Source of the DNA: Calothrix sp. CSU_2_0
Lineage (GTDB): Bacteria; Cyanobacteriota; Cyanobacteriia; Cyanobacteriales; Nostocaceae
Assembly (NCBI GenBank): GCA_012034595.1
Contig: JAAUPE010000085.1
Location: forward strand, 1 to 32,109
Direction of reading: 5' to 3'
Length of the DNA: 32,109 nt
In this document: in pieces, positions 9,108-30,493 of the stretch
Position numbering within the stretch: the stretch's first letter is position 1
Layout: each line of letters opens with the position of its first letter
Notes under the pieces: generated by a model
The model's input: only the letters and a program-made list of their open reading frames with translations
Told to the model about the DNA's origin: nothing
Database searches by the model: none
Program-made: the position numbers and the translations under genes

Positions 9108-9180
9108 GCGCTCTTAGTTCAGTTGGTAGAACGCAGGTCTCCAAAACCTGATGTCGGGGGTTCAAGTCCTCCAGGGCGCG
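9108..9180 (+). tRNA. trnW: tRNA-Trp (CCA anticodon)
   Basis: A complete 73-base cloverleaf. The acceptor stem GCGCTCT pairs with AGGGCGC (one G-T pair), with discriminator G at 9180. The anticodon stem is CAGGT/ACCTG around loop CTCCAAA, with anticodon CCA at 9141-9143. The T-stem GGGGG/CCTCC encloses TTCAAGT. The 3' CCA is not encoded. Its position between rplS and secE is the usual one in cyanobacteria. Confidence 0.97.
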
Positions 9181-11629: not shown

Positions 11630-11774
11630 GCAAATCAAGTTTTAGATTTTAAATCTTGGATTTTAGATTTGGATTCAGATTGAATATTTGAATTATTCGA
11701 TTGGACAATATCAGAACTAAGCAATCCAAAATAAAAATCCCTAACCCAAAATCGCTAATCAAAAATTAAATAAT

Positions 11775-11950
11775 TAGCCAGAGACAGCAGGTGTTATAAA
11801 CTTAATATCCTGCCGAGGTTTACACCAAACTAATCGCTTCTTGAGTACTTCAAGTAAAGTGTGGGAAGAAATTTGTGCGGAGTAATTACGATTAAAAATC
11901 AACCTCGAACTAAAACCCTGGCTTTCGTAGCTGGGGTTTAGTTTTTTGGT
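11775..11950 (+). promoter_or_regulatory. L10 leader RNA with transcription attenuator
   Basis: This lies in the 437-base gap before rplJ. A stem GCAGG (11787-11791)/CCTGC (11809-11813) is followed by CGAGG, resembling the kink-turn of the ribosomal L10 leader, where the L10-(L12)4 complex binds. A long-range stem pairs CGAGGTT (11814-11820) with AACCTCG (11901-11907). Immediately downstream is a terminator hairpin (11913-11939; arms AAACCCTGGCT and AGCTGGGGTTT with two G-T pairs) followed by AGTTTTTTGG. This arrangement fits autogenous attenuation of rplJL. The flanking bases (11640-11760 and 12000-12050) are AT-rich with AAATCTAAAATCC-type repeats and hold no gene. Confidence 0.75.
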
Positions 11951-12050
11951 TTAGTTTTTTGGTTTACTTTTTGTGATGTGTTTTGGAAATAGTTTTAGTT
12001 TATGAAAAATCTAAAACTAAAACTTAAAATCTAAAATCCAAAATCTCTTA

Positions 12051-24880: not shown

Positions 24881-25950
24881 TTACTTCAATTCCGGATGTG
24901 CCTTATCTTCAGCACTCAACCTACCCATATTATTAATTGTGGCAATCATTTGATACAAACGTCCCAAATCCCGTTGATTAAAATTCAATATCAAACGCGG
25001 TAAATCAATCGTTTCGTCTTGTCCTTCCTGGGGTAAAGCCTGACTTTTTTGGATTTTCCCCTTGACTAAAATATCGCTAAACTCTGTATTGAGCTGGTCA
25101 ACTTCAGCATCAGATAAATTTGACTTGAGACGAATTACCAATTGGTTACTGACATAACGACTTGAATGGTAAACTTGATAAAAACTGGTAATAGCATTAC
25201 AAGCTACCTCCAGATTATCTGTAATCGTGTAAAGATTAGGGTCTTCCGGACTAACTAAACCAGTTTTCAGCAAATGTTCGTCAACATACTTACTCCAAGA
25301 CAGCCAATAGTCACCACCAGGATGGTCAATTAAAACCAAAGGTACAGGACCAAATTTCCCAGTTTGGCTGAGAGTCATACACTCAAACGCTTCATCCTGA
25401 GTCCCAAAACCCCCAGCAAACACCGCAACAGCATCACTTTCCTTGAGCAAAAACAGCTTGCGGGTAAAGAAATACTTAAAATGAATTAACTTGCGATCGC
25501 CTTCAATATACGGATTCGCTTGCTGTTCAATGGTAACTGAATATTCAAACCAAAAGAATTATCACGCCCAGCACCTTCATGCCCAGCCTGCATAATACCA
25601 CCACCGCCACCAGTCATCACCATAAACCCTAACTCAGCGACACGATGGGCAAATTCCAGTGCCATCTTATATTCTGGGGTTTCTGGAGCCAGACGTGCGG
25701 AACCAAAAATCGTCACTTTGCGAACATGACGGTAATCATAAAACATCTGGAAACCGCGTTCCATATCAGCCAAAGAAGACGACAAGATTTTCCAATCAAG
25801 ACGTTCAATTTCGGTATCAGCTAAACGCAAAATTGTCAATAGCGCCTGCTGGATGAATTGTCGATGCTTTGACTCTGGTAAGCGATCGATTAATTCAGCA
25901 ATATTAGTTTGGAGAGACTCTAATGTGTCAAACGACGTATCCAAGGTCAT
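24881..25950 (-). pseudogene. LOG-family (TIGR00730) Rossmann protein, frame broken by a 1-nt deletion
   Basis: The N-terminal half (25950 down to about 25530) and the C-terminal half (25450 to 24881) lie in different frames, but join into one LOG-family protein of about 356 residues. The family includes cytokinin-riboside-monophosphate phosphoribohydrolases and nucleotide-binding relatives. Motifs are present on both sides of the break: VTIFGSARL and VMTGGGGGIMQAGHEGAGRD in the first part, FAGGFGTQDEAFE (the GG-x-GT-x-x-E signature) in the second. On the minus strand the break is at TTACCATTGAACAG; adding one T gives LPFEQQANPYIEGDRKLIHF, as expected. The sequence between the halves still reads as protein in the shifted frame, so the event is recent or is a sequence error. 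The ATG at 25950 is preferred over the TTG at 25965. Confidence 0.85.
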
Positions 25951-26599
25951 GAGAAATGCCGCCAAAAGGCTTTATATTTTACTTACAAATTGATGTAGAT
26001 TTAAGACGTTGCTAAATATGAGATATGAAATACGCAAATCAAATATGTGAAATCCTCACTCTCTGCACCTTTGCGCCATTAGGTGAGACAAATTCATAGA
26101 TTTAATTCAGTCCATAAAGTAACCATTCAAACTTAACCTACTTCGATCGCCGTCGCAAGGGTTTGAGACACAGCAAAGTCACCCTGAGAATCGCCGAGAG
26201 TGAAGACAGAGGAAAAAGAAAAAACGCCTTCAGTCGTGAAACCAAAGACGTAATATCTAGTCAATTAATGCCTAAAGTAATAAGTTGCGTGGGAAGAGAA
26301 CCTGGTGGAAGACTAAATCTCCCAGCCTAGCTTGGAAAGTTTCCTCCGTTAGGCAAACTTCGGGCGATTTCGATACAGACAGAGAAAATAATAAATGAGC
26401 CAGGATAACTAGCACAAATCACTTGCACAACCGGAGTTCCTGGGGTTGAACTAAGTGTAGCCAGTAGGGCGATCGCATTGCCAAAAAGTCATAACCCAAA
26501 AAGTCATAACTTTAATAAATTTAGTCATGCTCACACCATCACAACTTTGTATCAAGTCCTCTCTGACTCGTAAATGCTTCTCTACAAAATTACTTAACT
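25951..26599. other. Unexplained intergenic region with a hairpin and a decayed-looking frame
   Basis: About 650 bases between the broken LOG gene and trxA. On the minus strand a frame of about 44 codons (roughly 26262-26131) ends in LGDSQGDFAVSQTLATAIEV and a stop, which reads like the C-terminus of a lost gene. Upstream frames contain stops. A hairpin lies at 26337-26361 (AAGTTTCCT/AGGCAAACTT, with bulges). A tandem AAAAAGTCATAACCC/AAAAAGTCATAAC sits at about 26483-26510. No intact gene or known RNA was recognised. Confidence 0.45.
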
Positions 26600-26923
26600 T
26601 TATAGATATTTTTCCAAAGTATTGGCTAATGTAGTTTTCGGAACGGCTCCGACAACCATATCAACTTTTTGCCCACCCTTAAAAATCATCAAAGTTGGAA
26701 TACTGCGGATACCATACTGGCTGGCAACATTCGGATTTTCATCGGTGTTAAGTTTGACTACCTTGAGTTGCCCTTCGTACTGAGCTGCAATTTCTTCTAC
26801 TACGGGGGCTACCATCCGGCAGGGACCGCACCAGGGTGCCCAAAAGTCAACTAGAACAGGGACTTCGCTGTCTAGAACTTCCTGCTTGAAAGTAGAATCG
26901 GTAACTTGTGCGGCTGCTGACAT
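26600..26923 (-). CDS. trxA: Thioredoxin
   Basis: A 107-residue thioredoxin, the normal length, with the active site [10 protein letters not shown] (redox Cys at 31 and 34) and the cis-Pro loop [12 protein letters not shown] (about 73-84). It reduces protein disulfides and is itself reduced by thioredoxin reductases; in cyanobacteria this links photosynthetic electron flow to enzyme control. The acidic buried Asp (VDFWAPW) is present. In many cyanobacteria trxA lies close to guaB with the small RNA gene yfr1 between them. Here the three are in the same order and orientation, but trxA is about 1.9 kb from yfr1 because of repeats and gene remnants. Confidence 0.96.
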
Positions 26924-27073: not shown

Positions 27074-27135
27074 TTCTCAAGGTAGACGAGGTTTCTCAAT
27101 CGTATCATTCGTAGGGGCTGGGTATCCCCGCCCCT
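27074..27135. repeat. Fragment of a MITE-like terminus plus a GGGGC palindrome
   Basis: Bases 27074-27094 match, inverted and over 21 bases exactly, the left end of the element at 31878-31997. Bases 27113-27135 form a hairpin (AGGGGCTGGG, TAT, CCCCGCCCCT; one mismatch), a common dispersed cyanobacterial palindrome. Together they supply the last residues of the gene remnant at this place. Confidence 0.75.
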
Positions 27136-27618
27136 TATATGTTGGGTTGGTATTGGTCTTTTTGTTTGTGTTCCCTGTTCTTCCATCCCTTGCACCGAAA
27201 CCGAGTAAGTCGAAGTAGAGGGTTGCGGCTGTTCCTGCTTGGATACCAGTTAAATCGACTTTAAATGTAAGTGGTTGGTTGAGGGTGAGTTGAGTACCGG
27301 GGGTAGTGAGGTCATATTTTCCTGCGGCTTCGCCTGTGGTGGCTCGGAAGGCTGTGTCAGCTAGGGTTTGGGTGAATTCGCCGTTTTCCCAGGGAGTTTG
27401 GTCGATGAACCAGCCCACGCCGTTGGCATCAGCGTCGATGAGGAGGGTGCCGCCGTTGGGACGACCATATTGGTCGAAAGAGTTGATTTGGGCTTCGGCT
27501 AGTTGTCCGATGGGGAGGTCGGTGATTTGGAGGTTGATGTTGAAGGTGGGGTCGAATAAGGTAGCCCAGGAATCAGTAGCATTATATTTGAGATTAGAAA
27601 CAAAATTGGAAGTTAAAT
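27077..27618 (-). pseudogene. C-terminal remnant of a large secreted or surface protein
   Basis: The open frame extends to 28012, but only the part up to about 27618 looks like protein-coding sequence: DATSWATLFDPTFNINL-like start, LPIGQLAEAQINSFDQYGRP, GGTLLIDADANGVGWFIDQT, and a C-terminal QPLTFKVDLTGIQAGTAATL segment. From memory, similar cyanobacterial extracellular proteins have a metalloprotease-like HExxH segment right after the TGEAAGKYD stretch. Here TGEAAGKYD jumps directly to LTTPGTQLTL, which suggests an internal deletion. The 3' end runs into a palindrome and a MITE fragment that encode KGRGYPAPT and the terminal residues. There is no start codon or signal peptide at the 5' side, where it abuts the plus-strand pentapeptide-like gene. 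The family assignment is tentative. Confidence 0.5.
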
Positions 27619-27619
27619 A

Positions 27620-27961
27620 ATGGTTTTGAAAATGACTCCAGAAGAATTGGTTGGTAGCTACCTCCAAGGGGAACGTGATTTTCGAGGAATCAAGTTGATC
27701 CAATCCCCGTTCGATGTCGAAGGAAACGAAATCGACTTGCGGGGAAGTGTCCTCAATCATATAAATGCTACTTGCGCTTACTTCGACAGAGCTATTAACA
27801 TTGGAGCGCTGGAATATGCTATTTTGGCTGATGCTAGCTTCCAAGATGCTCATATCCCCGACCAACTTATCTGTCGTGGCGGAAATTTGATTTGGAGAAC
27901 TATTATGCCCGATGGCACTATCAAACTTGGTCCCCAGTGCGGAGACGGGGAAGGTAGATAG
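27620..27961 (+). CDS. Pentapeptide-repeat-like protein, possibly degenerate
   Basis: A 113-residue frame. The opening (MTPEELVGSYLQGERDFRGIKLIQ) matches the usual start of cyanobacterial pentapeptide-repeat proteins, where GERDF precedes the first coil. Five-residue periodicity persists (IDLRGSVLNHINATCAYFDR, then LADASFQDAHIPDQLICRGG) but many positions are no longer the A(D/N)LxG consensus. The end (TIMPDGTIKLG) is again typical. It may be a divergent or decaying member. Met at 27632 is an alternative start. It begins 2 bases from the end of the minus-strand remnant, suggesting that two gene fragments were joined here. Its stop overlaps the first copy of a 150-base duplication. The function is unknown; such proteins form right-handed beta-helices. 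Confidence 0.6.
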   Translation: MVLKMTPEELVGSYLQGERDFRGIKLIQSPFDVEGNEIDLRGSVLNHINATCAYFDRAINIGALEYAILADASFQDAHIPDQLICRGGNLIWRTIMPDGTIKLGPQCGDGEGR

Positions 27962-28110
27962 TGCGATCGCAATCCCCCGTAGGTTGGGTGGAGGCTTTGC
28001 GTAACCCAACACATGATATTAATAAAACAGAAATTTTTTAAACAATCAAATAATTAAATTCAACCATAAAAATAGACGCTTCAAATATTAAATAAAATGT
28101 TGGGGTACGA
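27961..28110. repeat. Copy A of a 150-bp direct repeat (MITE-like)
   Basis: Starts GTGCGATCGCAATCCC and ends AAATGTTGGGGTACG. Copy B (28229-28378) has the same length and matches over most positions, including the start, AACCCAACACATGATAT and the last 30 bases. Each copy has complementary termini of the type GTTGGGTTACG/CGTAACCCAAC. Confidence 0.85.
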
Positions 28111-28228
28111 CGCAAATATATATCAATCAATTCACTTCATATATACCTCTTGCGCCTGCACCCAACCGACAAATATATTATTTATAATCAAGAAAATACA
28201 TGGTGAAATACCACAAAGTGTTTTCCAA

Positions 28229-28378
28229 GTGCGATCGCAATCCCTCGTAAGTTTGGTGGAACGAAGTGGAACCCAACACATGATATGAAGAAAACGGAAA
28301 TTATTTAAACAAAAAAAATAACTAACTCCAATACTTAAAAATTAACTCTTCAAATATTAAATAAAATGTTGGGTTACG
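28229..28378. repeat. Copy B of the 150-bp direct repeat
   Basis: Diverged second copy (by eye about three quarters identical to copy A), separated from it by 118 bases. A 63-codon open frame at 28097-28288 lies across the copies and is not credible. Confidence 0.85.
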
Positions 28379-28849: not shown

Positions 28850-28852
28850 CTA

Positions 28853-28925
28853 CAAAAGGAACCGCCCGAACAGTAGTCCGGGCGGAGTGTGGTGTGAGGA
28901 GTGAACGGAAACATGCGTCTCCGCT
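28853..28925 (-). ncRNA. yfr1: Yfr1 small regulatory RNA
   Basis: Read on the minus strand, a 7-base-pair stem-loop (CGGAGAC, GCAT, GTTTCCG) is followed by the unpaired core ACTCCTCACAC (28902-28892), invariant in cyanobacterial Yfr1. A terminator hairpin follows (CCGCCCG, 28885-28879, with CGGGCGG, 28868-28862) and then TTCCTTTT. A -10 box TACAAT (28937-28932) lies 6 bases before the inferred start near 28925. Its place next to the guaB-type gene agrees with what is known of this RNA. Yfr1 acts by pairing its core with target mRNAs, including outer-membrane porin messages in Prochlorococcus. Confidence 0.88.
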
Positions 28926-28931
28926 ATCTCT

Positions 28932-28959
28932 ATTGTAGGCGACATATGAAATTTTTCCA
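28932..28959 (-). promoter_or_regulatory. Promoter of yfr1
   Basis: -10 TACAAT at 28937-28932, with a weak -35 (TGGAAA) 16 bases further upstream on the minus strand. The -10 spacing to the 5' stem of Yfr1 is ideal. Confidence 0.6.
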
Positions 28960-29100
28960 GTGATTGTTTAAGAGCCTGGAAAAATTTATTTAAGAATTTG
29001 ATGATGAAATTGAGAAGATATGGAAAAAGGCAACGGGAAATGGGAAAAAGCAAAAAAATATGAGATTTGACTTCCTGTTGTCCCTTTCACCCTTCTTAAT

Positions 29101-30264
29101 TTATTTACCCATACCCAATTGTTGAGCTTTTTGGTAAACTTTGCCTTCAGTCAGCAATGAAGGTGCAATAACGACTTCGACTTGTTGCATTTCTTTAATA
29201 TTTTTAGCACCTAAAGTACCCATACTAGTCTTTAATGCTCCCAAAAGGTTATGAGTACCATCATCAAGTCCTGCGGGTCCTCTGAGAATTTGCTCTAAAG
29301 TACCTGTAGTTGCGACACGAATGCGAGTACCGCGTGGTAAAACTGGGCTAGGTGTTGCCATGCCCCAATGAAAACCCCGTCCAGGAGCTTCAGCAGCACG
29401 GGCAAAGGGTGAACCAATCATTACACCATCAGCACCACAGGCTATACATTTACAGATGTCACCACCCGTAATTAAACCGCCATCGGCAATAACTGGGATA
29501 TATTTGCCTGTTTCCCGGAAAAAGTCATCACGGGCAGCAGCACAGTCGGAAATAGCAGTTGCTTGGGGAACTCCCACACCCAACACTCCCCGCGAAGTAC
29601 AAGCAGCGCCAGGACCAATTCCCACCATAACGGCGGCTGCACCTGCTTTCATCAAATTTAAGCTGACATCATAGGTGACGCAGTTACCCAATGCGACAGG
29701 CATGGGCATTTCTTGGCAAAAAGTCGCTAGGTCTAAAGGTACTATCGATTCGGGTGACAAGTGTGCCGTAGAAACTACCGTTGCTTGGATAAAAAATAAA
29801 TCTGCACCAGCTGCTGCCACAACCGAACCAAATTTACTCGCTCCTGCTGGGGTTGCACTAACTGCGGCAATACCACCTTGTTGCTTGATTTCTGTAATTC
29901 TTTGCGTGATTAGTTCGGGTTTAATGGGTTCGGCATATAGTTGTTGCATCAACCCCACAAATTCATCTTTACCAACTGAGGCAATACGGTCTAAAATTGG
30001 CTCTGGATTTTCGTAGCGAGTTTGGATTCCTTCGAGGTTCAGCACGCCTAATGCACCCAACTTCGATAAACCTACTGCCATGCGGACATCGACTACGCCA
30101 TCCATCGCGCTGGCAATAATGGGAATTTCCCGCTCAATATTGCCAATGCTCCATTTTGTATCCGCTAAATTTGGATCGAGTGTCCGATTTCCGGGGGATA
30201 AAGCAATTTCATCAATCCCATATGCTCTGCGGGCAGTTTTCCCCCGTCCGATTTGAATGTCCAC
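29101..30264 (-). CDS. guaB3: IMP dehydrogenase family protein without CBS domains (GuaB3 type)
   Basis: A 387-residue (beta/alpha)8-barrel protein of the IMPDH/GMPR family. The family signatures are present: [20 protein letters not shown] near the N-terminus, the catalytic-loop [20 protein letters not shown] carrying the nucleophilic Cys, and [20 protein letters not shown] with [19 protein letters not shown] for phosphate binding. CBS domains are absent, which separates it from classical GuaB (about 490 residues) and fits cyanobacterial GuaB3. GuaB3 is reported as an IMP dehydrogenase feeding GMP synthesis. The open frame reaches 30327, but the GTG at 30264 ([16 protein letters not shown]) gives the usual length and N-terminus. 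The yfr1 gene follows downstream on the same strand. Confidence 0.9.
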
Positions 30265-30493
30265 GCTGCTAAGTTCCCAAATCTGTTTTAAGGCTAAGTT
30301 ATCAAATTTTAAGTTACTTAGTGGCATTTTTTCACGGCAATTAAAGCTACATCCCGCTCTTTCTAAGTGTGATATGTAGCTTGTTTCACTATAGGAGGTT
30401 GGTGTATCTACAGGATATTTATTTAATTAACCGCCAAGTAAGCCTTAGACACAATGGAGGGGGGATATGGGGTTTAGATGGGGTTTGGCTGAC

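Follow-up and report, generated by a model that had tools for sequence, protein, structure and literature searches.

A complete yfr1 gene downstream of guaB3 in Calothrix sp. CSU_2_0, its promoter repeat, and a second group of small RNAs carrying the Yfr1 core

Introduction

Yfr1 belongs to a family of small regulatory RNAs that is already well described and present in nearly all cyanobacteria; it is an abundant RNA of 54–69 nt. Its gene was placed between guaB and trxA by Axmann 2005 (PMC1242208), and the survey of 31 genomes by Voss 2007 described yfr1 beside guaB in 25 and with trxA downstream in 27 (PMC2190773); the guaB–yfr1–trxA order has been in print since 2005–2007. The latter work gives the GC-rich 3′ hairpin of Yfr1 as 6–9 pairs, followed by a U tail (PMC2190773). 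In a 2016 set, from which the marine Prochlorococcus/Synechococcus lineage was omitted, yfr1 was reported in every genome (PMC4734099). Using reporters in E. coli, Nostoc Yfr1 was reported to lower 10 of 11 tested leaders and to raise one, acting via the core; further work in Nostoc sp. PCC 7120 dealt with mraY and murC, and Yfr2 from Nostoc was described as binding Yfr1 in vitro (PMC6974561). Lambrecht 2019 described Yfr10-like RNAs (Yfr10, Syr5, and two transcripts of Nostoc listed as bearing the Yfr1 motif, TSS 2515196r and 3750139f), which have the core in common with Yfr1 but differ from it in structure and synteny (PMC6778093).

Identity and structure of the RNA

The window, i.e., the whole 32,109-nt stretch of Calothrix sp. 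CSU_2_0 DNA analysed here, had been predicted from its letters to carry a complete Yfr1 on the minus strand, and the 5′ stem-loop, the core, the terminator hairpin and the TACAAT box were all found (Table 1). The covariance match that had been named as the check is present as well. The Yfr1 model RF01116 aligns end to end (model positions 1–59 of 59) with 61.8 bits and an E value of 4e-10, far above the curated gathering score of 38, and no further RF01116 match was reported in the genome (7.4 Mb). The only other window matches above the gathering score in the Rfam search are a tRNA (9108–9180) and a ribosomal L10 leader (11760–11951). All three genomes of the genus, this one included, have an RF01116 match, the two others also scoring 61.8, and in the order a match was obtained in 282 of 291 sampled genomes, 267 of them over the cut-off.

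Table 1. Features of the yfr1 locus and of related RNAs in the same genome (window positions unless a locus is named)
Feature	Coordinates	Strand	Basis
Yfr1 small RNA	28860..28924	−	full RF01116 match
5′ stem-loop (8 pairs, 4-nt loop)	28905..28924	−	fold
Unpaired core ACTCCTCACAC, the pairing region	28892..28902	−	sequence and fold
Terminator hairpin, 10 pairs, then TTCCTTTTGT	28862..28885	−	fold and terminator scan
−10 box TACAAT	28932..28937	−	sequence and consensus scan
Inverted repeat AAATTTTTCCAG-N15-CTGGAAAAATTT, right arm over the −35 position	28949..28987	−	sequence
guaB3 (GuaB3 family IMP dehydrogenase-related protein), upstream	29101..30327	−	TIGR01304, 549 bits, cut-off 342
trxA (thioredoxin), usual downstream neighbour	26600..26923	−	TIGR01068, 140 bits
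Cyano-1 RNAs	L095:1497-1574, L095:1652-1728, L100:1497-1572		exact complement of core; two in tandem
Second core-bearing sRNA, copies	L178:1512-1572 (~G000:C169:19330-19388), L178:1352-1412	+	

Folding of the minus strand reproduced both published hairpins; the 19 nt between them are unpaired and contain the exact core, and the fold is unusually stable (z-score −5.8; 0 of 200 shuffles equally stable). The 8 pairs of the 5′ stem-loop and the 19-nt unpaired stretch lie within the ranges for Yfr1, i.e., 6–10 pairs and 16–20 nt with ACUCCUCACAC, respectively. The 3′ hairpin, 8 of whose 10 pairs are GC, is one pair above the published 6–9 and was accepted as the Yfr1 hairpin. The terminator had been expected to consist of a GC-rich hairpin with a T-rich tail; the hairpin stands, while the tail after it is an interrupted T run, and the terminator consensus scan, with one site found vs. 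0.3 in shuffles, is weak alone. Given the base composition of the window, chance would produce 0.01 cores in it and 2.4 in the genome, both strands counted. The transcript is probably ~65–70 nt long, with putative ends at 28926/28924 and ~28856.

Conservation was followed through the best 80 of at least 566 guaB3 loci, 73 of which hold the exact core, always downstream of guaB3 and on the same strand. In the stretches fetched for the seven loci lacking the core (L019, L028, L044, L048, L056, L071 and L076), Yfr1 was not matched at E 0.01. Six of these seven genomes have Yfr1 elsewhere, in one case (L102) beside another guaB homologue and in four (L102, L103, L106 and L107) with trxA downstream of it; in the seventh case, L028, the sequence stops 71 nt past the guaB3 match, and no Yfr1 match was obtained from the genome.

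Covariation was scored on the Rfam layout, the RNAalifold consensus having put part of the 5′ stem against the 3′ end. Over 68 distinct sequences, 98.8% of cells in the two Yfr1 helices are paired, and 23 cells are changed on both sides, whereas shuffles give 3.6 and slid versions no more than 12. Twenty-one of these double changes fall in the terminator hairpin (99.6% of cells paired; four pairs with changes on both sides) and two in the 5′ stem (97.8%; one such pair). The paired changes support the Yfr1 structure, chiefly the terminator hairpin. The 68 sequences also show no variation in TTCCGTTC in front of the core or in CACA and TCCGC behind it; they were gathered by the exact core, so that the invariance of the core itself is there by construction. 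With the covariance match, the synteny and the covariation, the earlier statement that core and layout are those established for Yfr1 is well supported.

Genomic neighbourhood

The gene upstream, first described as guaB-type, is indeed a guaB homologue, more precisely GuaB3 (Table 1). It lies directly upstream of yfr1, and trxA follows ~2 kb downstream, the position between the two being usual for yfr1 and not obligatory. The locus resembles that of Nostoc sp. PCC 7120 in its two stem-loops, ACUCCUCACAC core, terminator, guaB/trxA flanks and orientation, but differs in that trxA is ~2 kb off, with repeats and a 311-codon frame between. The core-to-trxA distance of 1979 nt is the longest of 65 measured; among the 73 core-bearing loci (from the best 80 of at least 566), trxA was within the fetched stretch in 64, at 141–1858 nt from the core. 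This distance would suit a rearrangement that put ~2 kb before trxA and left yfr1 as a dead or silent remnant. However, the RNA, the terminator and the promoter elements are all intact, the match is the only one to RF01116 reported in the genome, and it scores the same as the matches in the other two genomes of the genus, which makes a remnant very improbable.

Within the spacer, two diverged repeat copies ~268 nt apart occupy 27960–28378, with TTGGGTT/AACCCAA near their ends. The 311-codon frame (27077–28012, −) matched neither Pfam nor NCBIfam at E 0.001, and tblastn at E 1e-10 gave no match to it among the best 80 of at least 566 guaB3 loci. Further along, a TIGR00730-type gene (24881–25965, −) is apparently split into the frames 25486–25965 and 24881–25450, which appears to reflect a frameshift, decay or a sequencing error.

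The RNA is also covered by a 67-codon frame (28850–29053, −), dismissed as spurious in the original prediction. The frame is open, as a real small protein gene with merely incidental RNA features would require, but it had no Pfam match at E 0.001 and runs across both the promoter and an RNA structure whose helices carry paired changes, so that a protein gene is scarcely credible here. By identity, structure and position, the locus is almost certainly the yfr1 gene of this filamentous cyanobacterium, and its RNA is a genuine, complete and ordinary Yfr1.

The promoter and its inverted repeat

The TACAAT box had been noted as standing at the right distance, and it does: it reads from 28937 to 28932, which leaves ~7 bases to the probable 5′ end at about 28925. 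A −35-like TGGAAA starts at 28959. The promoter consensus scan found one site vs. 0.6 in shuffles, a bare match no better than chance; in the promoter alignment, TANAAT is present in 66 of 66 rows.

An inverted repeat reaches over the −35 position with its right arm (Table 1), and its 9-base arms, set 10–20 bases apart, occur at one place only in the genome. Among 80 upstream regions (the window, the 73 guaB3 loci from the best 80 of at least 566, and L102–L107), 39 have a repeat scoring at least 8, vs. 50 of 1600 shuffles. In a second set of loci, for which the criterion was fixed after viewing the first set and which has some species in common with it, 17 of 28 same-family loci have the repeat at the chosen distance vs. 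none of 31 from other families; three of the 31 (L111, L160 and L161) carry a repeat with such a score placed at a different distance. The first set also holds repeats beyond the family, one scoring 11 at 48 nt in L050 (titled Leptolyngbya), and includes one of 12 at 52 nt in L040 (titled uncultured cyanobacterium). In the rows as printed, a right arm like CTGGAAAA is visible in all 28 same-family loci, the left arm being decayed in some.

Two roles were considered for the repeat. It may act as an RNA hairpin; its covariation score of 0.051 exceeds all 500 shuffles, yet a slide of −3 gives 0.062, and its 12 double-change cells are equalled by a slide of +2 and by 122 of 500 shuffles. These values come from 66 rows out of 77 distinct sequences (of 82) with the right arm. 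Eleven were omitted, i.e., the distant L046, L057 and L069, a stray opposite-strand match in L129, and seven same-family sequences (L142, L144, L146, L147, L148, L150 and L155) with repeat scores below 8, whose omission favours pairing. Alternatively, our guess is that the repeat could be an operator; the spacer length varies by ~3 bases, which disfavours a rigid dimer site.

A simple guaB3 terminator was set aside as an identity for the repeat. The right arm ends 45–52 nt upstream of the core wherever the score is at least 8, whereas in the second set the guaB3 match of same-family loci ends 120–407 nt from it. Moreover, Nostoc sp. KVJ20 (L103) keeps a repeat by yfr1 with no guaB match in the 1.5 kb upstream, where this one genome has a divergent frame that is protease-like by eye.

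Predicted targets and Yfr2

In the proposed mechanism, yfr1 would be transcribed from its own promoter into an RNA of ~65–70 nt, in which an unpaired stretch holding the core ACUCCUCACAC separates a 5′ hairpin from a Rho-independent terminator. The core would pair with mRNA leaders, those of murC and mraY among them, as a rule close to where translation starts, and this pairing would mostly lower translation of the targets, while Yfr2 RNAs, through a motif complementary to the core, would titrate Yfr1. That leader pairing and Yfr2 titration operate in this strain is likely by analogy with the published Nostoc and Prochlorococcus work.

The unpaired stretch of Yfr1 was scanned against the region from −60 to +21 in 46 frames with 150 codons or more, taken at the first start codon; this is a convenience set from the window and 13 loci of the same genome, for which murC and mraY were fetched on purpose, and the ranking uses duplex energy alone, without accessibility. 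In this set the predicted murC duplex ranks first of 46 (−27.9 kcal/mol, spanning −29 to −9 relative to the ATG) and the mraY duplex second of 46 at −21.5 if its GTG start is right, or −14.8, at a weaker site, from the first ATG; the median of the 46 regions is −7.35.

The exact complement of the core, GTGTGAGGAGT, occurs seven times in the genome vs. 2.4 expected and 0 for the backwards pattern. One of these sites is Yfr1 itself, one is the second sRNA described below, three are Cyano-1 RNAs and two are others (L099 and L101). Cyano-1 (RF01701) is a separate RNA family, which we take to be Yfr2, the partner of Yfr1, and the motif agrees: GTGTGAGGAGT, the exact complement, is present in each of the three copies in this genome that exceed the gathering score (Table 1). 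A fourth, weaker Cyano-1 match, below the cut-off, lies at G000:C89:37886-37953. In one relative, an exact complement of the core is found ~140 nt upstream of the yfr1 core (L129:1356-1366).

A second family of core-bearing small RNAs

The same genome has another core-bearing RNA at G000:C169:19319-19393 (+), which shows a promoter-like box, TAGTTAA, the core followed by CACACT, and a terminator, and which lacks a 5′ stem-loop; a second, diverged copy lies 160 nt upstream. A DNA search with this sRNA gave matches in 26 of 60 genomes, i.e., 26 of 36 in the family and none of 24 others, some of them partial (that in G001 is the terminator part alone). Nine genomes have two same-strand copies close together. 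In six of the eight loci read, this genome's included, a radical SAM protein gene (by eye) was matched.

When 243 genomes from the order were searched with a model built from 14 copies in these 8 loci, 58 gave a match at E ≤1e-3, many of the weak matches being the terminator alone. Within the family, 15 of 18 genomes match, 14 at ≤1.1e-9, counting G000 and G010, which had supplied model sequences. Since there are also strong matches outside it, down to 9.7e-14 in family f15, the second sRNA is not confined to the family. CTCCTCACA is present in 16 of 20 retrieved loci. Rfam, applied to five of its loci at E up to 1, returned nothing except one match far below its gathering score. These RNAs are perhaps the 'Yfr1-motif' RNAs of Nostoc in Lambrecht 2019. 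The synteny of Yfr10 is called not conserved there (PMC6778093), whereas the neighbourhood of the second sRNA family is partly conserved.

That the window RNA might itself be a Yfr10-like RNA, sharing the core alone, draws on the core being common to both groups, but can practically be dismissed: such RNAs are described as lacking the Yfr1 structure and synteny (PMC6778093), the window RNA matches Yfr1 in both and has no core outside that setting, and the separate core-bearing RNA of the same genome is the one without a 5′ stem-loop.

Conclusions

A joint reading, which we hold to be doubtful and offer tentatively, is that a dimeric regulator binds the yfr1 promoter repeat in the family and that the second core-bearing sRNA family feeds the same network from a different promoter. 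With the repeat centred near −43, yfr1, regarded as constitutive, would then be under transcriptional control of its own, and the second sRNAs, which have no 5′ stem-loop, are sometimes in tandem and often lie beside a radical SAM-type gene, would act on the same targets and Yfr2.

Annotating yfr1 adds a gene to this genome that is invisible to protein-based calling, and makes it possible to predict the published Yfr1 network of murC, mraY and Yfr2 for this strain. The promoter repeat and the second sRNA family are leads on how a supposedly constant regulator may be tuned.
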